Source: Chiridota heheva
Taxonomy: Eukaryota > Echinodermata > Holothuroidea > Apodida > Chiridotidae
Direction: 5' to 3'
Assembly: GCA_020152595.1 (NCBI GenBank)
Contig: JAIGNY010003262.1
Coordinates: 218,501 to 282,500 of the forward strand
Length of the DNA stretch: 64,000 nt
The notes beneath the pieces were generated by a model. The model was not told where the DNA came from. It searched no databases and was given only the letters and a program-made list of their open reading frames with translations. A program made the translations under genes and the position numbers. This document shows, one piece after another, positions 2,261-53,543 of the stretch (position 1 is its first letter; every line of letters begins with the position of its first letter).

Positions 2261-3590
2261 ATTACAATATCGGGCTTCTTAACAAAGTAAAGATTTTTTT
2301 AATGTTGGTAATTATGACAAAGGTTTTTAAAGGCTTCAAACAGTAAAATAAAGGTAAATAAAGGTCAAACAAATATAAGTTAATTCATAACATATTTCAA
2401 TTTCTTGACTTAAATTTCAATGTTTTCTGGGTTTCAGTGGGAACCTCTCAAAATGAGACCAAACTTAGATGCACTGCCATTTTCAAGAAAGTCCGCAACA
2501 TGACTCCTTCCAGCATCCAGCTCCCTGCAGAGCGTAATGGAAGACATACAAGACAAAACCTAGGCACGTACCCATATAATAACTTCTCCATCTTTCAACC
2601 ATTTTTGCTCTTTATACTCCAAATCAATTAGAGAATGGAACATACATCCGTCACACAACTGCGCAATAACTGACATTAAGGTATATATTCGAAACAAGTC
2701 TAGCAGACATAAATCTCCAGAAATTAGTTAGAAAGGCACACTTTAGAGTTTAAATGCATGGCGCTGCACTTCCACACTGACATATGTGTGATAACCATCG
2801 AAGATGTTTTGCAGTTTCAACCAGAACCAGAATCGGCATTTGTTAGTGTCTCGGGGCAGTTACCAGCTACCACCAGTCAGTCAAAAGTTCATAATGCCAA
2901 TAATTCCTGACCCCCTCCCAAAGCATTTGGGCATTTAAAATCCTCTTAAATCATGTTCAGAAACACTAAGGTTCACGTTTGTATGCTAGATAATTTTACT
3001 GTGGTGGCAGGGCCCTTGTTTTTGTTAAAAATGACTAGTTTCCACAGTCCACACAATTTCACAAATGACCTCAGCCCCACTAAGATGCAGCTGAGGTTTA
3101 AAGATTTTATATTTTTGACCCTCTAGATGTTAAGTAATTGTACTTCCAGGTTTTGAATTGAAACATTCAACATGTTCATAAATAGCATACCACAACTGTG
3201 AATTTATCAAAGCAGTGTAATATTGTTCAAGATGTCATATAAACATGAACTTAAATTGTATCAATACCTAGATTGACTTAATGATGGATGATGGAACACA
3301 TTTTTCACTACTCCCCATTTTGGAGACCAGTGTCTTTGTAAAAATAGGCCTTTTGCTCCCTGGACCCCCAAGCTTCCACATATTGATTGTTGAAAGTTAC
3401 CTCAAATCAAAATATTTAACATAACTGTATAACGTGAAAACTAAGCAAACAGGGGTCCTCAGATTATTATTCAGAAAAGCATCATTTTGTTCGCAAAAAT
3501 AAATGAAACTCAGTATATCAGCAGGCCTAGAAATTAGACCAGATGGCCCAAATTTACACCCTGTCTTCAGCAAGTCAGTGGCAGAACCCA
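2261..3590. other. Intergenic stretch, no gene seen
   Basis: AT-rich sequence with no splice-bounded frame or recognised repeat. Two short open frames (2437-2631 +, 3397-3606 -) resemble nothing I know and are treated as chance. Confidence 0.4.
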
Positions 3591-3594
3591 AATT

Positions 3595-4330
3595 TAAGGC
3601 GCTCAACGAGTGAAATTTGTGGCATTTTGCTTGATGTTTGTGTTACTTTCTTCACTTTTTCAATAAAAAGATAAATAACGGAAGTTCAATATATTTTAAT
3701 ACAACACTTGTTTTAATCTATGTAAAGGCGCATGTTTTAATCTTTACAAAGAAAATGGGAGATGGCTAGTCAGTTATGTCATGACAATGGCCCGGGCCCA
3801 AATAGTAAGTTTTGCCCTTCATGGCCCTTTTCAAAGATGCCCCACTAATGAAATTTGGGATGGTTCGCACACTCGAGAAAAGTCTTATTTTAAAGAGTAT
3901 TTACAAATTATAAGCTGGGAAAACAAAGGTAATCAGAGGTAAAGGCCTTTAGGTATTAGCAAGTCCAATAGGTCGGGCTGGTGGGTCCCCAGCTTTGTGT
4001 TTAAGAGAAATTTAGAATAGCGTGTTCGCGCAAAGCGCGTGAAATTTCACAATTGTTGTCTTTTAAGGCGATATTTGTGTTACTATCTTTAATGAAAAGA
4101 TAGTCTTTGAAGAAAAAGTTTTGAAATGTTTCAAAGGACAGGTATCTTCTATCAAAATGGCCCTCAACCTTGTGTTAGGGGAAACTTTTAGAATAGGTAT
4201 GCGCGCGAAGCCCGTGAAATTTCACAATTATAGTCTTTTTAGGGCAAAATTTATGTTACTTTCTTTAATGAAATGATAATGCAGATATATGGTCTGCGAA
4301 TAATTTTTTCTTCAATATTTGAAATGGCAG
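3595..4330 (+). repeat. Diverged repeat units with GCGC hairpins and a GTGAAATTTCAC palindrome
   Basis: Three related blocks, near 3600-3690, 4020-4110 and 4190-4280, share GTGAAATTTCAC or a remnant of it, then a TTTGTGTTACTTTCTTTAATG-like segment and AAAAGATAA. The second and third are preceded by GCGC-spacer-GCGC (GCGCAAAGCGC, GCGCGAAGCCC). The units are about 170 bp or more apart and diverged. The origin is unknown; they could be the inside of an old transposon. Confidence 0.55.
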
Positions 4331-11443: not shown

Positions 11444-12650
11444 TTGTTTCTCCTGTAGAATGACTGCATGGAACTGTTTTGTTTCTCCTGTAGAATGACT
11501 GCATGGAACTGTAATGTAGCTGTTATTTCTACTGTAGAATGACTGCATGGAACTGTAATGTAGCTGTTATTTCTCCTGTAGAATGACTGCATGGAACTGT
11601 AATGTAGCTGTTATTTCTCCTGTAGAATGACTGTATGAAACTAATGTAGCTGTTATTTCTCCTGTAGAATGGCTGTATGGAATTGTAATGTAGCTGTTAT
11701 TTCTCCTGTAGAATGACTGCATGGAACTGTAATGTAGCTGTTATTTCTCCTGTAGAATGGCTGCATGGAACTGTAATGTAGCTGTTATTTCTCCTGTAGA
11801 ATGACTGCATGGAACTGTAATGTAGCTGTTATTTCTCCTGTAGAATGACTGTATGGAACTGTAATGTAGCTGTTATTTCTCCTGTAGAATGGCTGTATGG
11901 AATTGTAATGTAGCTGTTATTTCTCCTGTAGAATGGCTGTATGGAATTGTAATGTAGCTGTTATTTCTCCTGTAGAATGACTGTATGGAACTGTAATGTA
12001 GCTGTTATTTCTCCTGTAGAATGGCTGTATGGAATTGTAATGTAGCTGTTATTTCTCCTGTAGAATGACTGCATGGAACTGTAATGTAGCTGTTATTTCT
12101 CCTGTAGAATGGCTGTATGGAATTGTATTGTAGCTGTTATTTCTCCTGTAGAATGACTGTATGGAACTGTAATGTAGCTGTTATTTCTCCTGTAGAATGG
12201 CTGCATGGAACTGTAATGTAGCTGTTATTTCTCCTGTAGAATGACTGTATGGAACTGTAATGTAGCTGTTATTTCTCCTGTAGAATGGCTGTATGGAATT
12301 GTAATGTAGCTGTTATTTCTCCTGTAGAATGACTGTATGGAACTGTAATGTAGCTGTTATTTCTCCTGTAGAATGGCTGTATGGAATTGTAATGTAGCTG
12401 TTATTTCTCCTGTAGAATGGCTGTATGGAACTGTAATGTAGCTGTTATTTCTCCTGTAGAATGACTGTATGGAACTGTAATGTAGCTGTTATTTCTCCGG
12501 TAGAATGGCTGTATGGAATTGTAATGTAGCTGTTATTTCTCCTGTAGAATGACTGCATGGAAGGATGATGGAACTGTAATGTAGCTATTATTCCTTCTGT
12601 AGAATGACTGTATGGAAACTAATGTAGCTGTTATATTTCTATTGTTCACA
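11444..12650 (+). repeat. 44-bp tandem array ending at the UVSSA exon 1 acceptor
   Basis: About 26 copies of a 44-bp unit: TAGAATGACTGTATGGAACT, then GTAATGTAGCTGTTATTTCTCCTG. Units differ mainly as GACTGCATGGAACT, GGCTGTATGGAATT or GACTGTATGGAACT. Each unit carries a pyrimidine-rich run followed by TAG (TTATTTCTCCTGTAG), which looks like a 3' splice site. The last, diverged unit reads GCTGTTATATTTCTATTGTT then CACAG and supplies the acceptor of UVSSA exon 1, so gene and array share sequence at this border. Confidence 0.95.
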
Positions 12651-12824: not shown

Positions 12825-15800
12825 GTAAGAATTATTTATATTTAAGGTGTGCTGAGATTCTGCCGTGATGATGAACTCATTATCATCATCGTCATCAATC
12901 GGCAGGGTACCACAAATTGATTCTGCCGTGATGATGAACTCATTATCATCATCATCATCAATCGGCAGGGTACCACAAATTGATTCTGCCGTGATGATGA
13001 ACTCATAATCACCATCATCATCAATCGGCAGGGTACATCACCACCACCCTGTGCAAGCTTAGCAATATTGTTTGGCTTGAGAAAATCATTCTACTGTAGT
13101 CTCCTAGTAAGTGTTGAATATATGTCAAGCAGGATGTCCATTGACTGCCGGCCAGGTGTCCATTGACTGCCGGCCAGGTGTCCATTGACTGCCGGCCAGG
13201 TGTCCATTGACTGCCGGCCAGGTGTCCATTGACTGCCGGCCAGGTGTCCATTGACTGCCGGCCAGGTGTCCATTGACTGCCGGCCAGGTGTCCATTGACT
13301 GCCGGCCAGGTGTCCATTGACTGCCGGCCAGGTGTCCATTGACTGCCGCCAGGTGTCCATTGACTGCCGCCAGGTGTCCATTGACTGCCGGCCAGGTGTC
13401 CATTGACTGCCGCCAGGTGTCCATTGACTGCCGCCAGGTGTCCATTGACTGCCGCCAGGTGTCCATTGACTGCCGCCAGGTGTCCATTGACTGCCGCCAG
13501 GTGTCCATTGACTGCCGCCAGGTGTCCATTGACTGCCAGGTGTCCCGGCCAGGTGTCCATTGACAGCCGCCAGGTGTCCATTGACTGCCCGGCCAGGTGC
13601 CAGGTGTCCATTGACTGCCGGCCAGGTGTCCATTGAGCCAGGTGTCCATTGACTGCCCGGCCAGGTGTCCATTGACTGCCGGCCAGGTGTCCATTGACTG
13701 CCGCCAGGTGTCCATTGACTGCCGCCAGGTGTCCATTGACTGCCGCCAGGTGTCCATTGACTGCCGCCAGGTGTCCATTGACTGCCGCCAGGTGCCAGGT
13801 GTCCATTGACTGCCGCCAGGTGCCAGGTGTCCATTGACTGCCGCCAGGTGTCCATTGACTGCCGCCAGGTGTCCGGCCAGGTGTCCATTGACTGCCGGCC
13901 AGGTGTCCATTGACTGCCGGCCAGGTGTCCATTGACTGCCGCCAGGTGTCCATTGACTGCCGCCAGGTGTCCATTGACTGCCGCCAGGTGTCCATTGACT
14001 GCCGGCCAGGTGTCCATTGACTGCCGCCAGGTGTCCATTGACTGCCGCCAGGTGTCCATTGACTGCGGCCAGGTGCCAGGTGTCCATTGACTGCCGGCCA
14101 GGTGTCCATTGACTGCAGGCCAGGTGTCCATTGACTGCCGGCCAGGTGTCCATTGACTGCCGGCCAGGTGTCCATTTGCCATGAGATAGAACATATAGGA
14201 TGTACTGGCTAATCTTCTGGCATTCTACGGTAACTTCCTAAGTATGTGGCCCAAGAATCTCAGTTGGCGAGATCTGACCCAATGCATCAGAGGTGTGGTG
14301 TTAGCAGCGTTAAAGTATGAATGACTGTGTTTGGAACAAACGTCTGATGTTAAGCATTATTCTACAACAGGATGTGGCAAAGGTAGTAGATTCGCAATTG
14401 CCAAGTAGGATTATAATACAGGTTGTGCCAAATACATGTAGCTTCACCTTGGTTGAAAGCAGGACAGTAGAACTCCGCCACATTTGCTGCAATTTCCAGA
14501 AGGTGGACCAAGCAAGTGCCTTGCTTCTTTGCAGATCACTTGCACTTGATGAACTTAAAACCTATGAGAGGTCAATCTGTATGGATACAGTATAATGTAA
14601 TATTTCTATGATTTCTAAGTGACATTTTGGTATCAAACCTATATCATCATGTTTCTTTTAGATATGTATTCTTATTAAAAAAACTTGGAACTCAATTGAA
14701 CAATGACTATAACATGTAATTGTTAGGGTACAGTATTTATTTACACCATAAATTTGTGTTGCCAGTAAAAATTTATTTTAAAATATCTTCCTGTATTAAA
14801 GATAAAGGATTACTGCAGGGGTCAAGGGTCAAGCAAGTCTGTCTTACATGAAAGAGGACTCCAAAAGAAACAAATTGGTGGAGGTAGCATTCAAAATCTT
14901 ATTCCGTTAAGGAGATATTTAAGTTAGTTTAGTATAATTTTTGTAGAAACCACTGAAATGAGACTGGCTGTGACATCATAGCCTCAGATTTCTCAATACC
15001 TTCATGTATATTGTCGTATTTTGTCTTGTGATTTTGTGGCTTAAAACCATTGGATGTCAGGAAAGTAGTAAAACAGAATCTTGCAAGGGGTAATTATAAT
15101 TTATCATTTGATGAAAGTTTGAGGAAAAATAATGCAAAGAGTAAAAAAGTTTAATACATTTTCTTTAAAATGCATTAATAATTGTTAAGAATGTGAGGAT
15201 TAGGGCGCCAACTTTCCATAGTAGACTTTCTACGCCAGTCATTTATACACAGATAAGACGGAGCTTTAAGCTTAAATATCTCTTTAATGGAATATGATTT
15301 TTTGACATTCTTCTCACCATTTTGTTTCTTTTAAAGAGCTCTTTCATATAAAATAGACTTGCTAGACCACCGAACTAATCCTTCAAGTAGGGCATTTCTT
15401 TGTTTCTAGTAGACCTTTCAATTGATGTGGTTTATTTTGTGTACTTTTGTTGCATTTCAGGCAGTCAGACAGCTATGTGGAGTATACTTTTGACAAACTT
15501 CAAAAGCGACTTGAAGAAGACCATTCAGAAATCAGACTCTCTACCTTCCAAATTATGAACGAATTGTTTGTGCGCTCCCACAGATTTCGTGAGTTGATGG
15601 TAGCAGATATGCAGCTGTTTCTTGAACTCACTGTAGAAACAAATGTTGAACTCCCCTTGCCACCTCCAAAAGCAGCTGCAAAGCTATTAAAAGAACAAGT
15701 TTTAAGAGCAATAGTAGAATGGAATGAAAAGTATGGAAAAGCTTATAAGAAACTGGCCTTGGGTTACAACTACCTTCAAACAAGGAAAAGGGTAAGTTAA

Positions 15801-18800: not shown

Positions 18801-21800
18801 TTTTCTTCTATTGAACAGATTTTACATGGGGAAAGGTTCTCCATATCATAAAGAGTTTATTTTCTATTATAACCACCTTCTGTTCAGCTTATTTCAGCAA
18901 AATTATCTTGTGAAGTCGTTTCTTCGAGGCCTGCCATTTTATGTACATTAATATGACACAAATCTCTTGCAGTGTGAAAGGGATAGAAATCAGTGTTACA
19001 GTATATATAATGTTCTCCTCCAAGATCAATAATCTACTATTTGAGTACATGTGAAGAGATTGATGTAAATTAATGAAATAAATGTGTATCAATAATGTTT
19101 TATAGAATACAAGGCTGCTGGTTAGGATAATATTACAACAGAACTGCTGAAAGCAGATGCCCATATTACAGAAGAAAGGCTAGAGGATTTATTGAGGGCA
19201 ATATGGAACACAGAAATAATGCCCACATCTTGGAAACAGGGGCTGATTGTGAAAGTCACAAAAAGGTGATATTGCCAACTGTCACAATTGGAGAGGTATT
19301 ACTTTAACATCAGTGCATAGCAAAGTGTTTGGCAGAGTTTTGATTGATAGAATCAGAAACGGAGTTGACAGCAAGCTGAGAGTTGACAGCAAGCTGAGAG
19401 TTGACAGCAAGCTGAGAGTTGACAGCAAGCTGAGAGTTGACAGCAAGCTGAGAGTTGACAGCAAGCTGAGATTTGACAGCAAGCTGAGAGTTGACAGCAA
19501 GCTGAGAGTTGACAGCAAGCTGAGAGTTGACAACAAGCTGAGAGATGACAGCAAGCTGAGAGTTGACAGCAAGCTGAGAGTTGACAGCAAGCTGAGAGTT
19601 GACAGCAAGCTGAGAGTTGACAGCAAGCTGAGAGTTGACAGCAAGCTGAGAGTTGACAGCAAGCTGAGAGTTGACAGCAAGCTGAGAGTTGACAGCAAGC
19701 TGAGAGTTGACGGCAAGCTGAGAGTTGACAGCAAGCTGAGAGTTGACAGCAAGCTGAGAGTTGACAGCAAGCTGAGAGTTGACAGCAAGCTGAGGGTTGA
19801 CAGCAAGCTGAGGGTTGACAGCAAGCTGAGAGTTGACAGCAGGCTGAGAGTTGACAGCAAGCTGAGAGTTGACAGCAAGCTGAGAGTTGACAGCAAACTG
19901 AGAGTTGAGCAGGCAGGGTTCAGAAGAGGAAGGAACACCACCGAACAAATATTTATACTTTGCAACATATTAGAACAGGTCATCAAATGGCAGTCAACCC
20001 TCTATATTACCTTTGTTGACTTCGAAAAAGTGTTTGACTTAGTACACAGGAGAGCCTATGGGAAATAATGGCAAGCTTATGGTATCCCACAGAAAATCAT
20101 CCCAATGTTTAAGATACTTTATGAAGGTAATGTATGTGCTGTAATGGATGAAGAAGTAGTGTCAGAATGGTTTCAAGTTAAGACGGGATTTAAACAAGGC
20201 GATGTAATGTCTGGTTTCATTTTTCTGATGATAGTGGACTGGGTGATGCATAAGACAACTAAAGCCAATAGTAATGGAATAAGATGGAGGTTTTTATGTC
20301 AAGGTAAGAAAACCTTGATTCTGCAGATGACATCTTTCTGACCTCCTCTACCTATCAACATATGCAAACAAAACTAACAAGGCTGAACCAATATGCTGCA
20401 CAAACTGGGTTAAGAATAAATAAGAAAAGACTGAAGTCATGAAAGTAAATAGTAGATGCTGTGACAAAGTGCAAATTAATAATAAACATCTGAAAAAGGT
20501 ACATATTTACAAGTACCTAGGAGCAACTGTAAACATACAAGGTGGTTGTGAAGAAGATATTGTTAACAGAATTTCTAAAGCAAGAACATCTTTATGAAAT
20601 TAAAGAAGATATGGAGCTCCAATACATATTCAGTCAAAACAAAGATCAGATTATTTAACTCTATTGTTAAGTCAATTCTCTTATACGGTTGTGAGATGTG
20701 GAAGACTAATGAGACTGACAATAAGAAATTGGATTATTTCATGTTCAAATGCATTAGAAGAATTTTGAAGATCAGATGGCCATATGTTGTTTAAAATGAT
20801 GAATTATTTACTAAGCAAAGGAGAATTAGCAACAAAGTCAAAATTAGAAGATGGAGGTGGATTGGGTTTATATCAAGAATGAAAGAGGACAGCCACTGCA
20901 TGACAGCACTGACATGGAAGCCAGAAGGGAGAATGAAAGAGGACAGCCACTGCATGACAGCACTGACATGGAAGCCAGAAGGGAGAAGGAAAGAGGACAG
21001 CCACTGCATGACAGCACTGACATGGAAGCCAGAAGGGAGAATGAAAGAGGACAGCCACTGCATGACAGCACTGACACGGGAGCCAGAAGGGAGAAGGAAA
21101 GAGGACAGCCACTGCATGACAGCACTGACATGGAAGCCAGAAGGGAGAATGAAAGAGGACAGCCACTGCATGACAGCACTGACATGGAAGCCAGAAGGGA
21201 GAAGGAAAGAGGACAGCCACTGCATGACAGCACTGACATGGAAGCCAGAAGGGAGAATGAAAGAGAACAGCCACTGCATGACAGCACTGACATGGAAGCC
21301 AGAAGGAGAATGAAAGAGGACAGCCACTGCATGACAGCACTGACATGGAAGCCAGAAGGAGAATGAAAGAGGACAGCCACTGCATGACAGCACTGACATG
21401 GAAGCCAGAAGGGAGAAGGAAAGAGGACAGCCACTGCATGACAGCACTGACATGGAAGCCAGAAGGGAGAATGAAAGAGGACAGCCACTGCATGACAGCA
21501 CTGACATGGAAGCCAGAAGGGAGAAGGAAAGAGGACAGCCACTGCATGACAGCACTGACATGGAAGCCAGAAGGGAGAATGAAAGAGGACAGCCACTGCA
21601 TGACAGCACTGACATGGAAGTCAGAAGGGAGAATGAAAGAGGACAGCCACTGCATGACAGCACTGACATGGAAGCCAGAAGGGAGAATGAAAGAGGACAG
21701 CCACTGCATGACAGCACTGACATGGAAGCCAGAAGGGAGAAGGTAAGAGGACAGCCACTGCATGACAGCACTGACATGGAAGTCAGAAGGGCGAAGGAAA

Positions 21801-24362
21801 GAGGACAGCCACTGCATGACAGCACTGACTTGGAAGCTAGAAGGGAGAATGAAAGAGGACAGCCACTGCATGACAGCACTGACATGGAAGTCAGAAGGGA
21901 GAATGAAAGAGGACAGCCACTGCATGACAGCACTGACATGGAAACAAGAAGGGAGAAGGAAAGAGGACAGCCACTGCATGACAGCACTGACATGGAAGTC
22001 AGAAGGGAGAAGGAAAGTAGGACGACCAAGAACGACATGGAGAAGAATGGTAGTGAAGGAAAGAGAGGAGCTAGGGTGGAATTCTTATAATGAAGCCAGA
22101 CACATTGCCAGAGGTAGGATACATTGGAGAGAGTACACTGCAGCCTTATGGGACACATGGCCCGAAGAGGAATCTTATGGGACACATGGCCCAAAGAGAA
22201 CAGTGAGTGAGTGAGTGAATGTTTTAACTGTCTCAACATTCTGTCCATTTTATGATGAAATATTTTTTTGTGGTCAATTCTTATATTTGTCATTGTTTCT
22301 TTTCAGAAACTGTTCCTGAAATTGAAAAATGTCTCAAAGAAGCAGATTCTTGCTTCGCTCTGCTTTTCCCATTAAATGTTGAGGAGAAAGAGCAAGTCAT
22401 TGTACAGGATGTGATCCACATTGATGATGAGTTTGCAGACACTCAGATTGATGCATCAGCAGACTTACAACAAACAAAATCAGACAAAGTACATGCAGGA
22501 CAGAGATGTGAGCCAATTGTCAGTGAAAAAGTTTTGACAATAGGTCCTGAAGACTTAAAACATGATGGAAAGTCTCAAGAATCCTGTAGAAAAGTGGCCG
22601 TTGATTTGGAAAACCATGATACCTTTGAACTGGTAAAAGGTAGATGTCAAAATGGATGTGAAGAAGAAAAAGAAAGTGGACAGTCACTTAGTGTGTGCTC
22701 AAGGATTTCTAGTGGAAATAGACATGAAGCAGTTCCTGAGGGAATGAACATTCTGAATCTTGAGGGAAAATGTCTCTCACCTGATGGATTAGACACATCT
22801 GTTTCTGTTGAACCTTTGCATCCCAGCCATTCTACTGCATTTACCCAACTTGGCAAGGAGAGCAGCGATGAGGATGCCAGTCAGATGGATCCTCTGCAGT
22901 CTCATGGAGTTCGATCAATTGCTCAGAATTTTACTATTGACATTGATGTACCAACAGGTAAGGATCTGATTGTCTTTACACTGTAATGTATGTATTATAT
23001 TGCAGGCTGAACCAGCAACCTTGTTTTTAATTTATGTTGATGTTAATTTATGCAGTAAATTTCTTCTCGATGCAGATATGGATGAAAAAGTGGAGGTAAC
23101 AAAAATGTCTCCAATATATTATTTTTAAGACTTTTCCAGATTACCATAAAGTCACTTTCTTTTGTCATATTGTCAACTTTCTTCACTTTTCCTGGCCAAA
23201 GACTTTCCTGATTTAGGTTATGAATCAATAATGGTCGCAAAACATGCCAAATAATGTCAAAGCACAGGACTTTATGGGAAGTTCCGTCTTTGACTGCTCT
23301 GCCCCACCATTCTGTAATATAGAATGCAACAAACAACACATCATGCAGGATTGCTGACTGTTTGCACTCCCTAGAATGCTCCTCCCACCTAACAGCTCAT
23401 TAACAAGAATCAACCCTCTTATGTGCAACACATCAACAACCAAAACAATATCTGAACCCTCCCTTTTCCTCAAAATGCTATACCCATCTGTACACCTCTT
23501 CCTTCTCTCAATACCCAATGCACCAATCTTTTTAATTTGTTGCGTAGAATTATGTTACCTCATACTTTAAGTTAACCCTATTATCACCATTAAGCATGCT
23601 GTCACGGTGCTGTTATACAACACCATTTAAAACCAAAAAACTTGGAACAAGTGAAAGTGTGGTAGGGGGCATACATGTATTGGGTTATAGGGTCTTCTCT
23701 AGATCCAATTACTGAATAAAGATTAATTACCAATTAATTTAAAGGAAACTGATGACAAAATTGCATCTATTGTGTTCAAAATATAGGTGATACTCAGGCA
23801 TGTGTGTCCAACGCCATATAGCGGATTTCTCCTATTTCAATCATAACGATTCCACTGGTCATTAAATTTTCTGGTTTTTTTGTTTTGATTTTGTATATAC
23901 TGTACTCGCTATATACCATAGTACCTAATAGAATTAGCACTATTAGGTATATTTATTGCCCCAGAAATCACAAATTTATCAATTTTTCTCCAGGGGTTTA
24001 TGCAGGGGCCCTTTAGATGGCCCCTGGACCCCACACTGTTTAGATTCAGGCAACAACCCATGCTGCACCCTTGGGCTGGAAGTAATCAAATATATTCCAA
24101 CCATTTCATTTATATCTCACTTACTGTACATGCCTGAATATTGAATGAGGTGTATGTATGTATGTATGTATGTATGTATGTATGTATGTATGTATGTATG
24201 TATGTATGTATGTATGTATGTATGTATGTATGTATGTATGTATGTATGTATGCACATGTATGTATGTATGTGTGTATGTACATGTATGTAGGTAGGTAGG
24301 CAGGTAGATAGATAGATAGACAGATAGATAGATGTAGACATAAATATATATATATATAGAGA

Positions 24363-24639: not shown

Positions 24640-27600
24640 CATACATATATATACACATACATACATACATATACACATACATACATACATATACATACAC
24701 GTACATACATGTACACATACATACATACATACATACATACATACATACATACTTACTGCAGGTCATTTAAGATTTGTCATTTTCCTATTTTTGGCAGATG
24801 GTGTCATACTTGTAGAGGATGAAGACAACATGGATGTACTCAGCAACTTGGATGATGCCAAGAAGCTTATCATCACATTATACATCCCAAGGCTCAAGTG
24901 CTGGATCCAAGTAATTTAATTTTAATTTTCTTAGTTCCAATTGGTGTCTTTCATCATTGATAAACTAATGTTTAAAAAACATGCATGAACATAGCCCAAC
25001 ATATTGTGGAATTGAAAATTAAATTAGATAATACATTTGTATGGAATTAAGACTGAACTTTAAAATGAACTTAAAGCAGTGCATTTCGAAGTGAATAGTT
25101 GTTAGGCACAAAAGAAAACTCATATGATAGAGCCTCTGACATCAATTAAACTGAGTCCTTGCATGAAAAGAAATAATATAATAAATGCTGGCCGAAATGA
25201 AGCATAAAAGATTTCTGATAATCTCCAAAGGAATCTTTATCAGGTTTTCAGTCAGAGACTAAGTAGATAACTAGCCCTATATGATTTGTAAGGAAACATC
25301 AAGTTGTATAATTTTACTCCTTAGCCGATTTGGCTAAGGAGGGCTATTGCGATCATCCTGTTTGTTGGTCTCTGTGCAATAGTCTCCTATTACCACCCCT
25401 AATGTGGTACTATGACAGGGCAGGGACAGGAGGGGAATGGCAATCTGGTTCCGAATGGAAAGGAGAAGTTGCTGTATAATAAAACAAGCGACTTCACTTC
25501 CTTCCTTACATTACAATGTTCTTCGGCTCAGTAAGCTGACCTAACATAAAAGCTCATAGAATTGTTTGGTTGTAAGGACCGGTACAGTGGTCATCCTTTA
25601 TTAAGTATAACACTATAAAATCAAGAGCAATGCCTCTTACAAGGTATCTAAAATGATATGTATTGCTCCAATCATTGTTTGAAACTTTATCTATTCACTA
25701 AATATTACCTTCAGAAGGAGTCAGATAGAAATATATTTCACTTTCGGAGACTGGATTAAAGTTCCAGTAACTCTAAAACCTGTAGATAAAACAGTGTAAG
25801 GCTCTACCCTACAGTAGGGGACAGAGCAGTACTAATTAAAGCTCTAACAGTAACTGGTATTAAACTAACCATTTAAGTTTTCCTTCACTTCAACAAAGCA
25901 CCCAAGCCAAAATCAATATATATGATTACAATCTCCGGAAAGTCTCTCTGGTCCACATGAGGGACCAACTAATGTACCTCCATAAAACTCCAGTGCCACA
26001 TTAGGGGTGGTAAGGGTGGACTAGGTAACATGCTTATGCATGGAAGATGATGGTGGTATACTAAAGATGGGAGGTGTATGGTGTATAGGTGTATATGGCT
26101 GGAAGTTGTATTGACCACCTGAAAATACTTTTAGAAAAATTAAAATATTTTCACAATTACTGAAAATGTTAAATTAATTTTCAATAAAATACACTAACAA
26201 TTGTTAAGAAGGTTTGTTTAATTGATAGATTTAACTTCCATTTTAGGATTTAACCAAAGCTGGAAATCAACCACACCACCTGAGGAAGTGCATTGACCTC
26301 AAACAGTCTCTGAACACAGTCTTGCAGAAGTACAGTGAACTTAAAGTACAAAGAAGAGCAAAGGATGATGGGGACAGTGAGGATGAGGAGGAGGATGGGG
26401 ATGAGTTTGTGGATGTTCCAGAGAAAGAGGGATATGAGCCACACATACCTGATCATTTGAGGGAGGAATACGGTAAAGAAAGATTAACTATTCAACATTT
26501 GAAGTTTGTGCATTTGTATTAGCTCGATACTGATTGGTTCCCGTAACTGCAGAATGAAAGTTTTTAGATTAAGTCATCTATTAAGCAGACAATATTAGAG
26601 AACTACTAAAGCAGCCTGCAGATTAGATCCTACAAAGTTATCGTTGACCGAGTAATTTGGGAACAATTTGTTGGATGTGTGAGCTCACTTGATTTGTTCA
26701 TTGAGGTCAAAGTTCTCAATAGATTAATTTCTCTTACTACAATGTTCAGACATTTCTTGTTACTCTGAGCATGCAAGCCAGTCCTGTGTTTTTTTGTTAA
26801 ACTATCTAGTATTTGTGAATCATTGGGGTGCCTAGACCTGCACTTCACTCAATTTTAGTCTGACAAGGGTTAATATTAACCCTCGCTGGACTACGACCAG
26901 GATGGGGACCTGCGCTTCACTTAATTCCAGTCTGACAAGGGTTAATATTAACCCTTGTTGGACTATGACCAGAAAGGGGGACCTGCGCTTCACTCAATTC
27001 CAGTCTAACAAGGGTTAATATTAACCCTTGTTGGACTTTGACCAGAAAGGGGACCTGCACTTCACTCAATTCTAGTCTGACAAGGGTTAATATCAACCCT
27101 TGTTGGAATATGACCAGGAAGGGGACCTGCGCTTCACTCAATTCCAGTCTGATAAGGGTTAATATCAACCCTTGTTGGACTACGACCAGGATGGGGACCT
27201 GGACTTCACTCAATTCCAGTCTGACAAGGGTTAATATCAACCCTTGTTGACTTTGACCAGGAAGGGGACTTGCGCTTCACTCAATTCCAGTCTGACAAGG
27301 GTTAATATCTACCCTTGTTGGACTACGACCAGAATAGGGACCTGCGCCTCACTCAATTCCAGTCTGACAAGGGTTAATATTAACCCTTGTTGGACTTTGA
27401 CCAGGAAGGGGACCTGCACTTCATTCAATTTCAGTCTGACAAGGGTTATATCAACCCTTGTTGGACTATGACCAGGAAGGGGACCTGCACTTCACTAAAT
27501 TCCAGTCTGACAAGGGTTAATATTAACCCTTGTTGGACTTTGACCAGGAAGGGGACCTGCGCTTCACTCAATTCTAGTCTGACAAGGGTTAATATCAACC

Positions 27601-30600
27601 CTTGTTGGACTATGACCAGGAAGGGGACTTGCGCTTCACTCAATTCCAGTCTGATAAGGGTTAATATCAACCCTTGTTGGACTACGACCAGGATAGGGAC
27701 CTGGGCTTCACTCAATTCCAGTCTGACAAGGGTTAATATCAACCCTTGTTGACTTTGACCAGGAAGGGGACTTGCGCTTCACTTAATTCCAGTCTGACAA
27801 GGGTTAATATCTACCCTTGTTGGACTACGACCAGGATGGGGACCTGCGCTTCACTCAATTCCAGTCTGACAAGGGTTAATATTAACCCTTGTTGGACTTT
27901 GACTAGGAAGGGGACCTGCGCTTCACTCAATTCTAGTCTGATAAGGGTTAATATCAACCCTTGTTGGACTATGACCAGGAAGGGGACCTGCGCTTCACTC
28001 AATTCCAGTCTGACAAGGGTTAATATTAACCCTTGTTGGACTTTGACCAGGAAGAGGACCTGCGCTTTACTCAATTTCAGTCTGACAAGGGTTAATATCA
28101 ACCCTTGTTGGACTATGACCGGGATGGGGACCTGCGCTTCACTCAATTCTAGTCTGATAAGGGTTAATATCAACCCTTGTTGGACTATGACCAGGAAGGG
28201 GACCTGCGCTTCACTCAATTCCAGTCTGACAAGGGTTACTATCAACCCTTGTTGACTTTGACCAGGAAGGGGACTTGTGCTTCACTCAATTCCAGTCTGA
28301 CAAGGGTTAATGTCTACCTTTGTTGGACTACGACCAGGATGGGGACCTGCGCTTCACTCAATTCCAGTCTGACAAGGGTTAATATTAACCCTTGTTGACT
28401 TTGACCAGGAAGGGGACCTGTGCTTCATTCAATTTCAGTCTGACAAGGGTTAATATTAACCCTTGTTGGACTATGACCAGGAAGGGGACCTGCACTTCAT
28501 TCAATTTTAGTCTGACAAGGGTTAATATCAACCCTTGTTGGACTACGACCAGGATGGGGACCTGCGCTTCACTCAATTCCAGTCTGACAAGGGTTAATAT
28601 TAACCCTTGTTGACTTTGACCAGAAAGGGGACCTTCGCTTCACTCAATTTCAGTCTGACAAGGGTTAATATCAACCCTTGTTGGACTATGACCGGGATGG
28701 GGACCTGCGCTTCACTCAGTTCTAGTCTGATAAGGGTTAATATCAACCCTTGTTGGACTACGACCAGGATGGGGACCTGGGCTTCACTCAATTCCAGTCT
28801 GACAAGGGTTAATATCAACCCTTGTTGACTTTGACCAGGAAGGGGACTTGCGCTTCACTCAATTCCAGTCTGACAAGGGTTAATATCAACCCTTGTTGGA
28901 CTACGACCAGGATGGGGACCTGCGCTTCACTCACATCCAGTCTGACAAGGGTTAATATTAATCCTCGGTGGACTATGACCAGAAAGGGGACCTGCACTTC
29001 ACTCAATTCCAGTCTGACAAGGGTTAATAGTTACCGCTGTGTCCTTGAGCAAGACCCTTCACTCTTCATGACTGCTTCTTCATGGTTTTGTGAAGTGAGA
29101 ACTTTAATACACATTAAAAGATTTTTAAGACTGATCAATTTGTCCAAAATTTTAGTTTTAAAGTTTGCAAAATGATTTACTCAGTATTTGGTCTCTTGTT
29201 ATTTTAACTGACAACTTACGTAGACATCTATAGACTAGTACCTTTGTGCTTTTACAGGGTTAGAACCACTGGATGCTCCTTCAACTTCTACAAAGTGTAA
29301 TCCGTCACCTAAACCTAAGTCATTAAAACCAGGATCCTCTCGCAAAAAGTCAAACACAGCATCTGAAAAGGATGCCAAGATGGCAGTTTACAGTAAAATG
29401 CATGATTATGACTGGCACCCAGTGCTGAGCTTTGAGCATGATGCCGCTGATCCCACCTCAAGGGCAGCCACCATAGCTGCTTGGAAGAAGAAACAGCAGG
29501 AGGTAGAAAAACAAACTGGGAAGAAGTAAGTTGAACTGGATTTGGATGTACCGTATCAGGCGCCCCTGCTCTAATAAACACCCACCCGACATTGTTTGAG
29601 TGATAACATAATTTACATGATTAATTTGAAGATGTAGCATAAGTTTTGTTACAATTTTTGCTTATTTGCATCTGACGATCACAATGCTCTTGTGGTGCTT
29701 ATTGTGGGGCTAGTACCGGTTCACACAATGTAGTTCGAATAGCACACTGTAAGTGGCCGAAACATTGGCGATTATTAGGAAGAAACGTTGGACCTAAAAA
29801 TGTGGTGCCATTCTAATTTTCGTAAAAATACGGTAATTAGAATGTGGTTTTCAGAGTGTATAGTGAATGACAATGTGGAAGTTGATCATTGAAGTTGAAT
29901 GTGTTAGTATAGCTGAAAGTGACAGCTGAAGTAAGCTGAATTTCATTTTAAAAGAAAGTTAAATCTTTCATTGAATTACTAAGAAAAAAATTGTACACTT
30001 AGTTAAAGTTTTACTTAATACAAGTGTTCAGATAATTGTGTTGAACCAACCCAACAATCTGTATCCCTTAACCGTCCCTGCCAACACCCCTTTCCCCAGA
30101 GTCACAGCGCCTGCAAGTCGGCATATCTTCACTACTCAGTTAATCATTTAAACTTCTTTGACCAGCTTCAAACATCACTTAAAACCAACAAGATCCAAAG
30201 CAGTTTCAGAAGATAATTCAAGACACATGGACCACATTATCAAAACAAATACTTCAATCCATAAAGCCTTTGTGAAAAAAAGTACACATTATTGACAATT
30301 TTCTTTGTCAATAATTTTTTTCAACACTACCAGAAAATATGGTAGTCTTGACAACTCACACAGCATTGGCCTCAGAAGCCATCTTTCTCTCCTCCAGACA
30401 TCTCAGATATAAAAGATGCTCATGAGAACTATATGTCACCTATGATTAAAGCTAAGCTGCCAGGCACTATTGACCCAGCTTTTAAACATCACCAAACCAA
30501 ACATGGCACTATATGCACTAAGGGTCAAAGTGCCATTAAACCCTACCAACCAAGCAAGCAACCAATGAATTTCCTTGGTCTTAGAAATACCTACAATTAT

Positions 30601-33600: not shown

Positions 33601-36600
33601 CATTATGAACACGCAAAGTATTTCTTCTTGATAATATTTAAAAACAACTATTTTGTAGACCACAAATCCTCTTGAAAGATTAGTATTACTATATGTGTCC
33701 ATCACATACCATTCTAGGGGAAATCCACCTTTTTATGTCCACCCATATAATGTTAGGCTAAAGCTTGTTTATTTGGCAAGAAAATTGATCATCTTTGAGT
33801 AAATATATTTGCTGATAAAATTTAATGTCTTTTATTTTATTACGGGAAACATTATACCCAGTGCTTATATTTCTGGTCCCAAATTGTCAATTTTCCCCTA
33901 GGAGTTTAAAATACATTTATGCCAAAAATGTTCATTAATGCATTTTCAAATGCTAATTAATGTACTTAACATTGCCCTATTGCAGAATTTAACACCATTA
34001 TAACATTCTATATGGACTAAAATATGAAATCATGAGACCTTGGGTCTTCATTTTGCCAATATGTTTGGTTGATGTCTCGTGAATCAATCACTATATCCGG
34101 CTAAGGTTTTGCCAGTATGTTTGGTTGATATCTCATGAATCAATCACTATATCTGGCTAAGGTTTTGCCAGTATGTTTGGTCGATGTCTTATGAATCAAT
34201 CACTATATCTGGCTAAGGTTTTGCCAGTATGTTTGGTTGATACCTCATGAATCAATCACTATATCTGGCTAAGGTTTTGCCAGTATGTTAGGTTGATATC
34301 TCGTGAATCAATCACTCTATCTGGCTAAGGTTTTGCCAGTTTATGTTTTGAATCAATCACTATATCTGGCTAATGTTTTTGATATCTCAATCAATCACTA
34401 TATCTGGCTAAGGTTTTGCCAGTATGTTTGGTTGATATCTCATGAATCAATCACTATATCTGGCTAAGGTTTTGCCAGTATGTTTGGTTGATATTTCATG
34501 AATCAATCACTATATTTGGTTAAGGTTTTGCCAGTATGTTTGGTTGATGTCTCGTGAATCAATCACTATATCTGGCTAAGGTTTTGCCAGTATGTTTGGT
34601 TGATATCTCATGAATCAATCACTATATCTGGCTAAGGTTTTGCCAGTATGTTTGGTTGATATCTCATGAATCAATCACTATATCTGGCTAAGGTTTTGCC
34701 AGTATGTTTGGTTGATATCTCATGAATCAATCACTATATCTGGCTAAGGTTCTGCCAGTATGTTTGGTTAATATCTCATGAATCAATCACTATATCTGGC
34801 TAAGGTTTTGCCAGTATGTTTGGTTGATATCTCATGAATCAATCACTATATCTGGCTAAGGTGTTGCCAGTATGTTTGGTTGATACCTCATGAATCAATC
34901 ACTATATCTGGCTAAGGTTCTGCCAGTATGTTTGGTTAATATCTCATGAATCAATCACTATATCTGGCTAAGGTTCTGCCAGTATGTTTGGTTGATATCT
35001 CATGAATCAATCACTATATCTGGCTAAGGTTCTGCCAGTATGTTTGGTTAATATCTCATGAATCAATCACTATATCTGGCTAAGGTTCTGCCAGTATGTT
35101 TGGTTAATATCTCATGAATCAATCACTATATCTGGCTAAGGTTTTGCCAGTATGTTTGGTTGATATCTCATGAATCAATCACTATATCTGGCTAAGGTGT
35201 TGCCAGTATGTTTGGTTGATACCTCATGAATCAATCACTATATCTGGCTAAGGTTCTGCCAGTATGTTTGGTTAATATCTCATGAATCAATCACTATATC
35301 TGGCTAAGGTTTTGCCAGTATGTTTGGTTGATATTTCATGAATCAATCACTATATCTGGCTAAGGTTCTGCCAGTATGTTTGGTTAATATCTCATGAATC
35401 AATCACTATATCTGGCTAAGGTTCTGCCAGTATGTTTGGTTAATATCTCATGAATCAATCACTATATCTGGCTAAGGTTTTGCCAGTATGTTTGGTTGAT
35501 ATCTCATGAATCAATCACTATATCTGGTTAAGGTCTTGCTCCACTTCTAATTTCATCATTTTCACCTGACAGAACATAAGAGGACTTTTTGTGCATCTTC
35601 CATGTGGCTCTACAGTTTGCTGAAAGGAAAAATACCAAAATAAAGGTTTGATGTTTGTAAGTCCCAATCAACACAGCTTGATGGGACTTCAAGGGTTAAG
35701 AAAAAATCCAGGATGAGTATTTTCGTTAAAGGAATATTTCTGTGAATGATCATTTTCATTTGTAGAATAGAGAAATAATAAAGAAACAAATTGGTGAAAA
35801 AACTTTGTTGATATCTTAGTTCGTTAAGGAGTTATTGATTTCAAAGATTTCATGAGTGACCTGATACTTGCAGATTGAAGATAATTCTTTATGGTTGTCT
35901 ATAAATTAAAATTGATTTTTCTTTCATTTAGAGTGTAATGTACCTGATCAGATAGACAAAGCATGTTCTTGTGAAAGGAAGTGCATGCTATCTATACCCC
36001 ATCTCAATAGTGAAACAAAAATGTATTCAATGAAATAGAAAGAGGATATCATTTTTCAGTTTTCAACACACTGCTGAAATCTTTAAAATGCAATAACTCA
36101 AAAGGAATAAGATAACAGCATGTTTTTTTTTTTCTTCACCAATTTGTTTCTTTAATAGTCCTCTATTTTATATATTGAAAACAAAAAATATTCTTATAAA
36201 ACCATACATAGACATTCTTTGGCATGGTTTCATTTCACACATGGAGTTTCATATTTGATTGTTTTTCCAGAATGTAAAAGATTTAATCAAGACCAGAGTG
36301 ATCAACTTCACTGGAAAGTTTGAACCTGTCAAATGGAAATGTAGAGCGCTACCATCTGGCAAGCTGTGTGAACGAATGGATAGACTCAAGGTACTGTTTG
36401 TGGTTAACATTAGCTTAATTGTCTGATGGCTACCAATTGGCTTAATTGCATGATGGCTACCAATTGGCTTAATTGCCTGATGGCTACCAATTGGCTTAAT
36501 TGCCTGATGGTTACCAATTGGCTTAATTGCCTGATGGTTACCAATTGGCTTAATTGCATGATGGCTACCAATTGGCTTAATTGCATGATGGCTACCAAAT

Positions 36601-39600
36601 GGCTTAATTGCCTGATGGTTACCAATTGGCTTAATTGCCTGATGGTTACCAATTGGCTTAATTGCCTGATGGTTACCAATTGGCTTAATTGCATGATGGC
36701 TACCAATTGGCTTAATTGCATGATGGCTACCAATTGGCTTAAGTGCATGATGGCTACCAATTGGCTTAATTGCATGATGGCTACCAAATGGCTTAATTGC
36801 CTGATGGTTACCAATTGGCTTAATTGCCTGATGGTTACCAATTGGCTTAATTGCCTGATGGTTACCAATTGGCTTAATTGCATAATGGCTACCAATTGGC
36901 TTAATTTCCTGATGGCTACCAATTGGCTTAATTGCATGATGGCTACCAATTGGCTTAATTGCATGATGGCTACCAATTGGCTTAATTGCCTGATGGCTAC
37001 CAATTGGATGATGGCTACCAATTGGCTTAATTACATGATGGCTACCAATTGGCTTAATTGCCTGATGGCTACCAATTAGCTTAATTGCCTGATGGCTACC
37101 AATTGGCTTAATTGCCTGATGGCTACCAATTGGCTTAAATGCCTGATGGTTACCAATAGTGAAGTGGTCTGTAAAGGGCAATAGAGTGAGATGAAGGAAA
37201 TTTTATAGTTTAAATATATATTTTTTTTTGACATTTCATATTTGAAATATTTTGTTTGCTCTGAAGATCAGTGGATTTATGGAGGGATTATTGATCACAT
37301 GATGGGATTATTGATCACTTGATGGGATTATTGATCTCTTGATGGGATTATTGATCACTTGATGGGATTATTGATCACTTGATGAGATTATTGATTACTT
37401 GATGGGATTATTGATTACTTGATGGAATTATTGATCACTTGATGGGATTATTGATCACTCGATGGGATTATTGATCACTTGATGGGATTATTGATCACTT
37501 GATGGGATTATTGATCACTTGATGGGATTATTGATCACTTGATGGGATTATTGATCACTTGATGGGATTATTGATCACTTGATGAGATTATTGATTACTT
37601 GATGGGATTATTGATCACTTGATGGGATTATTAATCACTTGATGGGATATTGATCACTTGATGGGATTATTGATCACTTGATGGGATTATTGATCACTTG
37701 ATGATTCTTAGCCTTCCTGCAATGAAACATGTTCATAGACCTTCATCTAAAATTAAAAGTGGATTCAATTCGTGGTGGGTCAAATTCACATTCCCAAACT
37801 GCTTTGATTGCTTGTCCAGTGTGTTACAAAGGGTCACAGATTACCATATAAATAAACAATTTTTGGTATCGCAAGTGGTTGCCCACTTTTGATTTGATTG
37901 TGAATTTTCAAATTGCAATTTATGACTGTTATGTGCAGGAAGAGCAAGACTGTAAACATGTGATATGTAAATTCCATTGAGTATACTATTTATTTTAAAA
38001 CACAGAATTCATATATAAAGGTAACAGCTAGGGTGTGTGTGTACCTACAGCAGAACTACCTATACCTACAGCAGAACTACCTATACCTACAGCAGAACTA
38101 CCTATACCTACAGCAGAACTACCTATACCTACAGCAGAACTACCTATAACTACAGCAGAACTACTTATACCTACAGCAGAACTACCTATACCTGTATCAG
38201 ATCTCACTAAGCATTCACCTCTTTAGGTCTAGTAGCTCAGGAGTCATGTTCTTATTCAAAAGGTACCGGGTTCGATTCCCACCATGAGCGCTGCATTGTG
38301 TCCTTGAGCAAGGCACTTTACTCTACTTGCTTCAGTCCACTCAGCTGTAAAATGAGCACCAGCACTGCTGGGGAGTTAATCTGCAATGGACTCCCATCCA
38401 GAAGAGTCATGTACTATTATCTGCTTGCGCCATTGAAACCGGGGATAAGCACCAGCTCTATTAACCTGATGGCTTTGATGGATTTAGCTTTAGCTAACAA
38501 TCTGTCTTTCTTTTTACCTGTAACAGTGCCCTTTTCATGGCAGGATTGTTGGTCGTGATGAGCAGGGCAATCCCTCAGCTCCTGAGTACCAAGAGGAACC
38601 ACCAAGGGAGGAACCACCAGGAAGGAACAACCAACAGGTAGAAAGCATAGCAACTCCTTTCCACTCCTTTCTGTTATATGTTTGTCAATGTGCATGAGAG
38701 TCATGATATTTTACCATTTATATATTTGTCAGATTTTAGCTTTTTTTTTATCTCAGATCATCTTAGTTTTATCTCATTGATTTTGTTCTTTACAGCAGAA
38801 TCAGGCAACCCTCCCCTTTGGCAAGATCCTGGGTTGCTTAGAGGACATTGAGGCAGCCACTGGGGATTGTTTTGGCATCCACTTCATTTAAGAGGAAAAA
38901 AGGCTCCAAGGGAAAAGGAAAAAGCAAGAAAGGAAAACAGAAAGCCGAGGCATCCTCTGGATTGACAAACCTGAAACAAACTACAAACACACCAAGAGCA
39001 AGGCTTGAGAAGCAAATATTCAAAGCGTGAGTTTATCTTCACATTATTATAAGCTCTGAATGATTCAAACATTGTTGTACTTCATCCATATGTGGGTGCA
39101 AGGGGACAACCCCCACACACATGTATTGGTTCCGATGTGATAGCATCTTGAACCTATGCGATCGTGATGGTGTGTACGTGTGTGTATGTGTAGGTTTGTA
39201 TATCATTCAAAGTGAAGCCATTGTCATCGGTTATATCTTGCAAGGTGTGGTCCTTCACGCCTGAGCCCACTTTGCATATTTAGATCATTTGTACTGTCAG
39301 TAGTTCTCCCAGCATATACTTTTGTTATGCTTCACTTTTACATTTACATCTGAAAAATGTATAGCTGCATGCATGATAGCCAGGGTATGGAGAGCCTCAC
39401 TTTTGAGGATATAGAACTGACATTGGCTTAACTTTAATAGTGAATTACTCACATACATACATACATACATACATACATACATACATACATACATACATAC
39501 ATACATACATACATACATACATACATACATACATACATACATACATACATACATACATACATGCCACATAATTCTATAATACACCACCATACATACAACC

Positions 39601-53048: not shown

Positions 53049-53543
53049 ATGCGAGCATTTGCTATGCATGCTGAACAGAACATTATCCTATATGCACTCC
53101 AACATGGATTCAGAAGCAAAAGATTGTGTGAAACCAAACTCTTAGAGTGTGTGGATGAGCTTCCCAGAAATCTTGAAAGTGGAAAACAGACAGATCTCTC
53201 GATTTTAGATTTCTCTAAAGCATTTGATAAAGTTTCAGATAACCTTCTTGTACATAAATTCAAGCACCATGGTATCAGAGGAAACACACTTGGATGGATC
53301 AAAGCCTTCTTGTCTGACAGAACGCAAGTAGTAGCTGTTGAAGGAGAGGAATCAGACATTGGAAAGGTTGAGTCAGGTGTGCCACAAGGGTCTGGCCTCG
53401 GCCCCAGTCTCTTCCTGTTCTACATCAATGACCTACCTGATAACCTTACCTCTACAGTCCGCCTTTTTGCTGACGATACCATTGTGTACCTCACTGTTGC
53501 ATCAACAACCGATCTTATTACAGTCAATGGGATATTTTTATGA
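53049..53543 (+). mobile_element. CR1-like reverse transcriptase fragment, open frame
   Basis: An unbroken frame of 165 codons carries the catalytic core of a CR1/jockey-type reverse transcriptase: QHGFRSKRLCETKLLE (about residue 18), DFSKAFDKVSDNLL (domain A with catalytic Asp), HHGIRGNTLGWIKAFLSDR, VESGVPQGSGLGPSLF (domain B), LFADDTIVY (domain C, two catalytic Asp). It starts and stops abruptly, so it is truncated at both ends. No in-frame stop suggests a fairly recent insertion. It may be of the family whose 3' ends lie at 5725 and 1231. Confidence 0.93.

Follow-up and report, generated by a model that had tools for sequence, protein, structure and literature searches.

Our analysis of a 64,000-nucleotide stretch of Chiridota heheva DNA (the window) indicates that a dead, truncated LINE copy very probably grew two long tandem arrays locally, after its insertion, from short direct-repeat pairs that its own family carries. 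The element and its two arrays are placed as follows.

About 19109..22217, + strand: LINE copy, 5'-truncated and dead, beginning in the reverse-transcriptase part and closing with a 3' tail that contains a short TGAG repeat; apparently located within a UVSSA intron
19362..19908, + strand: array 1, consisting of 30 full 18-bp units followed by a partial one of 7 bases, GAGTTGA (TRF and unit-by-unit reading)
20876..22007, + strand: array 2, 21 units, of which 19 are 54 bp and two are 53 bp long (TRF and unit-by-unit reading)

The presence of two long arrays in one dead LINE, pointed out in a first-pass annotation of this DNA, is real. TRF reports a period of 18 bp with 30.4 copies at 19362-19908 (97% match) and a period of 54 bp with 21.3 copies at 20876-22023 (96% match), and reading unit by unit gives 30 units of 18 bp and 21 of about 54 bp, both copy numbers being those of a single assembly; the single-copy flank of array 2 restarts at 22008. 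Identical units make up 22 of the 30 in array 1. The annotation had VDSKLR present 30 times, and its count of short units stands, but five of these 30 do not read VDSKLR. It had also placed both arrays in coding frame, which is correct for the unit lengths, 18 and 54 being multiples of three, but not for the whole of array 2, which is broken as an open frame by the two 53-bp units, each shifting the frame, and by a TAA in the unit at 21738.

The first 255 bp of the window LINE gave 40 scored matches, including itself, among 158 candidates in the 1.1-Gb genome searched. All 39 non-self matches begin at query base 3 or later, and the best of them are 90% identical. The open frame of a much better preserved copy, L027, extends 5' of the point at which the window copy starts, and the latter is therefore 5'-truncated; because its single-copy parts hold stops and frame changes, it is also dead. 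Downstream of array 1 it resembles the Pfam family RVT_1 with 23.1 bits, under the curated cut-off of 29.6, whereas L027, which has a single VDSKLR, matches RVT_1 clearly (86.9 bits, E 1.9e-24), as well as DUF6451 in Pfam and R2 and L1 proteins whose structures have been solved. In the two alignments inspected, segment 1 of L027 (the stretch corresponding to array 1) aligns with two R2 proteins without any repeat. Judged by these comparisons, both arrays lie within reverse-transcriptase coding sequence. The likeness to a LINE with an L1/R2-like reverse transcriptase and DUF6451 thus consists of RVT_1, DUF6451, R2 and L1 chain matches that are all found in the sister copy L027, whereas the window copy differs in being truncated and dead and in having an RVT_1 match below the cut-off. 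Elsewhere in the window, an open reverse-transcriptase fragment of another element lies at 53049-53543 (RVT_1, E 2.2e-17).

The surroundings of the element contain the following features.

15426..15797, + strand: open stretch with a UVSSA_N domain (Pfam PF20867, E 3.6e-41), a UVSSA exon upstream of the LINE
19094..19102, + strand: possible 5' target-site duplication AATGTTTTA, ending 6 bases short of the LINE start (chance about 0.02)
22218..22226, + strand: possible 3' target-site duplication AATGTTTTA, 9 bases, with the same letters as at 19094..19102

Positions 22228-22986, which lie on the + strand like the UVSSA_N stretch, form a long open stretch with no Pfam or PDB match that looks like a later exon, and the LINE would apparently sit in a UVSSA intron between the two.

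The other copies of the element in the same genome reveal the state of its sequence before expansion. Of the 39 other copies with a scored match (among 158 candidates), we read the 20 that matched best. Neither array is present in any of these 20, and TRF shows none at either site. All 20 are without array 1, and segment 2 (the stretch corresponding to array 2) is single in 17 of the 17 copies that contain the region, with a length of 42-54 bp; the region was not found in L028, L030 and L033. In these relatives, each unit is thus single where it has not expanded, as the first-pass annotation had said of related LINE proteins. In L026, segment 2 is single and is directly preceded by a longer two-copy duplication that overlaps the segment by a few bases. 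In a search of the genome for the exact 36-base dimer of unit 1, all 17 matches, which overlap one another, fell inside array 1. From the single segments in the 20 copies read, the lack of any TRF array there and the restriction of the exact unit 1 dimer to this site, it follows that the arrays are local. This answers the check that the annotation had proposed, in favour of local expansion over a mobilised array. That the arrays pre-existed in the source element and moved with it has a very low probability: nothing was found in its favour, the same array does not recur in several copies (0 of 20 read), and the exact dimer of unit 1 exists only in array 1.

Both future units are flanked, in unexpanded copies, by short direct repeats at the period of the later array; in the window copy, these seeds stand at the array ends.

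19362..19368, + strand: left seed of array 1, GAGTTGA, with the same bases in most unexpanded copies
19902..19908, + strand: right seed of array 1, GAGTTGA (unit reading and copy comparison)
20876..20885, + strand: left seed of array 2, AGAATGAAAG (copy comparison)
22008..22017, + strand: right seed of array 2, AGAAGGAAAG (unit reading and copy comparison)

For segment 1, the two seed positions are exactly 18 bp apart in 18 of the 20 copies (19 in L039 and, through a deletion, 13 in L037), and GAGTTGA is perfect on both sides in eight copies, with one mismatch in six and two or more in the remaining six. For segment 2, the seeds comprise 10 bases with one mismatch (T/G), and the pair AGAATGAAAG/AGAAGGAAAG at 54 bp is exact in five of 17 copies; in the other 12, between 2 and 10 places are mismatched when gaps are counted. 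The direct repeats are accordingly present before expansion, perfect in 8/20 copies for segment 1 and with the one mismatch in 5/17 for segment 2, and decayed elsewhere, so that seeds are not intact in many copies (12/20 and 12/17, respectively), a point that speaks against growth from such seeds. When all combinations of breakpoint and period between 10 and 100 were considered in L027, 0.10% fell on a 7-of-7 repeat and 0.07% on a 9-of-10 repeat, which corresponds to a chance of about 0.001 per array for a seed at the array period. Fifteen pairs of exact repeats, 7 bp or longer and spaced by 10-100, are present in the LINE part of L027, and the GAGTTGA spacing is the shortest among them; eight of the 15 spacings are multiples of three, and spacings divisible by three may help to explain why both arrays are in phase. 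The T/G seed mismatch is also the commonest difference among the units of array 2, with T in 13 and G in 8, which would be expected had the two versions of the seed both contributed to the array. The order of T and G is mixed and not strictly alternating, and a strict 108-bp higher-order unit, considered for array 2, was rejected on this ground. The seed pairs belong to the LINE family itself and are of the kind at which slippage or unequal exchange would be expected to start.

Based on these observations, we propose the following multistep scenario, in which (i) the LINE copy would have inserted in 5'-truncated form in the apparent UVSSA intron and then decayed; (ii) the inserted sequence would have held the short direct-repeat pairs native to its family; (iii) slippage or unequal exchange between the members of a pair would have produced one duplication of the enclosed stretch; (iv) the longer copies would then have recombined or slipped together, leading to 30 and 21 units, within a genome that is rich in minisatellites and a window that is perhaps more so.

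The timing in this scenario is suggested by the divergence of the units. Compared with the majority letters of the other copies, the window copy shows 66 differences over 1353 sites (about 5%), 40 of them at sites where the majority exceeds 80%. Measured against their own consensus, the units differ at 8 of 540 sites in array 1 and, with the seed site left out, at 13 of 1113 sites in array 2. The unit divergence of 1.2-1.5% is about a quarter of that of the copy (Fisher p 4e-9; p 0.002 when the comparison is restricted to the 40 differences at strong-consensus sites). The tree, which comprises 17 sequences and from which L026, L028, L030 and L033 were excluded as too short in the aligned parts, is star-like, and the terminal branch of the window copy measures 0.054 (FastTree) or 0.046 (IQ-TREE). 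Position 34 of the long unit is C in all 21 units and T in all 17 other copies; on a plain reading, which is not proof, this base changed first and the arrays would have grown at a late stage, when the copy was already old. A low unit divergence could also result if older arrays had been homogenised, which would give the same picture as late growth. Since the units are less diverged than the copy and share the C at position 34, the arrays either grew after insertion or had their units homogenised later.

The same divergence bears on the possibility that the arrays were made in reverse transcription, by template slippage at the insertion of the window copy. The seeds could serve template switching equally well and both arrays are in one copy, as such an event would have it. 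However, units made at insertion should be about 5% diverged like the copy, and are 1.2-1.5% diverged, so that later homogenisation would have to be invoked as a rescue; arrays are, moreover, common outside the LINE, both in the window and at other loci. Because the units are far less diverged than the copy, amplification during reverse transcription, one of two origins put forward in the first-pass annotation, is not supported, and we consider it very unlikely. An inflation of the arrays by the assembler is more improbable still: the unit numbers rest on one assembly, but private variants are scattered among the units, the two 53-bp units are neighbours, one variant is shared by a pair of adjacent units, and 14 of the 20 contigs carrying the copies read exceed 1 Mb, which suggests long reads.

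The annotation's other proposal, a locus-wide tendency for tandem growth, is borne out in part. With a period of at least 10 and at least five copies as the threshold, the window contains 15 arrays in 64 kb (17% of bases), compared with 16 in 142 kb (5%) at other loci of the same genome, a control made up of short stretches centred on LINEs. At this cut, the contrast of 15 vs 16 has p 0.05, and p 0.11 if the two LINE arrays are left out (13 vs 16); at a cut of at least 10 copies, it is 13 vs 7 (p 0.002; 11 vs 7 without the two, p 0.009). The other loci are, however, rich in minisatellites too. As the control loci are short and LINE-centred, a local excess may exist but is not securely established, with p ranging from 0.002 to 0.11 by the cut used. 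The chance of at least two arrays in 1.45 kb of LINE sequence is about 5% at the window rate calculated without the two, and about 1.3% at the rate of the other loci, which is not striking for a finding picked from the whole window. A special instability of the UVSSA locus, driving tandem growth above the genome background, would be compatible with local growth from the family's seeds; we regard it as a tentative possibility, favoured by the arrays of at least 10 copies (13 in 64 kb vs 7 in 142 kb) and disfavoured by the counts at five copies, by the nature of the controls and by the fact that the finding was selected on account of its repeats. Overall, minisatellites are abundant in this genome, and perhaps more so in the window. 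Other long minisatellites in the window are located at 11482-12634 (44 bp), 13130-14176 (21/42), 26835-29029 (72) and 34051-35539 (56/168), with further ones at 36409-37157 (27 bp), 37284-37703 (20) and 40003-40344 (24). A 20-bp array at 24346 is among the 15 window arrays; a 63-bp array with 2.9 copies is not.

A third tandem duplication is present in the same LINE copy.

22145..22198, + strand: tandem duplication with period 29, about 2 copies

Its motif is single in the other copies in which it was found (L026, L039, L041 and two 3' pieces of L036), and no seed is visible for the duplication at 22145, which again speaks against a seed origin. The first-pass annotation had pointed out that both unit lengths are multiples of three. 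We see no significance in this, since nine of the 15 window arrays (period at least 10, at least five copies) have such a period by a rough count in which some arrays carry several TRF periods (seven of 13 without the LINE arrays), and since the third duplication and an array in copy L045 both have a period of 29. The relation 54 = 3 x 18 is taken as a coincidence: when the long unit is divided into thirds, these agree with one another at 2, 8 and 9 of 18 positions, and there is no 18-base periodicity. The stop and the two frame changes in array 2, together with the 29-bp repeats in the window copy and L045, led us to reject in-frame expansion as a mark of selection or translation. We thus assign no role to the coding frame, given the 53-bp units and the TAA, the 29-bp duplications and the nine of 15 window periods that are divisible by three, and no coding role of the arrays was seen. 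Pfam matches within the repeat units (Bactofilin, DUF481, ZP1_ZP4_Ig-like and ANAPC4_WD40, some above their cut-offs) are taken as chance hits of repetitive sequence. Hairpin-driven growth was likewise rejected, the DNA folding of four array stretches being not special (z -0.15 to -1.41).

Minisatellite births are hard to study, as the starting sequence is usually unknown. Here it is preserved in many sister copies, which give direct access to the seed of each array. In the model of Haber and Louis (1998), as described in PMC6947457 and PMC3389668, minisatellites are born at short flanking direct repeats. The 7- and 10-base repeats flanking the future units at exactly the array period agree with this description of the model; the difference is that, in our case, numerous dispersed copies of the element still show the state before expansion. 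Both arrays fit this flanking-repeat route, of which they are an unusually clear example and not a new kind. In human, as reported by Ahmed and Liang (2012, PMC3389668), at least 23% of minisatellites derive from transposable elements; such arrays expanded by local duplication and are accounted for in part by flanking repeats, which are most often 7 bp long. The same authors cite the Alu case of Jurka and Gentles. According to the same source, only 6% of the human arrays derived from transposable elements show flanking repeats or partial end units and fit known models, a figure that would count against a seed explanation. The window copy resembles these human tandem repeats in that part of a transposon copy was amplified locally, and differs from them in that a single LINE copy holds two long arrays together with a short duplication. 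Several arrays per transposon copy are not discussed in the abstract or results of PMC3389668, and searches of the open-licence PMC literature listed no title or abstract on two arrays, with or without a short duplication, in one LINE copy.

The LINE family could show how often, where and when seeds give rise to arrays. Direct duplications of LINE sequence occur in three of the 20 other copies read, namely L026 (twofold), the 3' end of L036 (threefold) and L045 (29 bp, about sevenfold). The coding sequence of the family might act as a built-in minisatellite source, with in-phase direct repeats that seed arrays repeatedly in dead copies across this repeat-prone genome, but this seems rather unlikely; if true, it would provide many dated, independent minisatellite births from known starting sequences. 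The L045 array lies in the reverse-transcriptase region (2930-3133 in LINE direction) and comprises about seven 29-bp units, one of them irregular. In L036, the LINE 3' end is present three times in succession (3774-4193 in LINE direction), with TGAG-rich tails between the pieces, and L035 contains a fold-back in which part of the LINE stands in both orientations side by side (about 2920-3120 in LINE direction).
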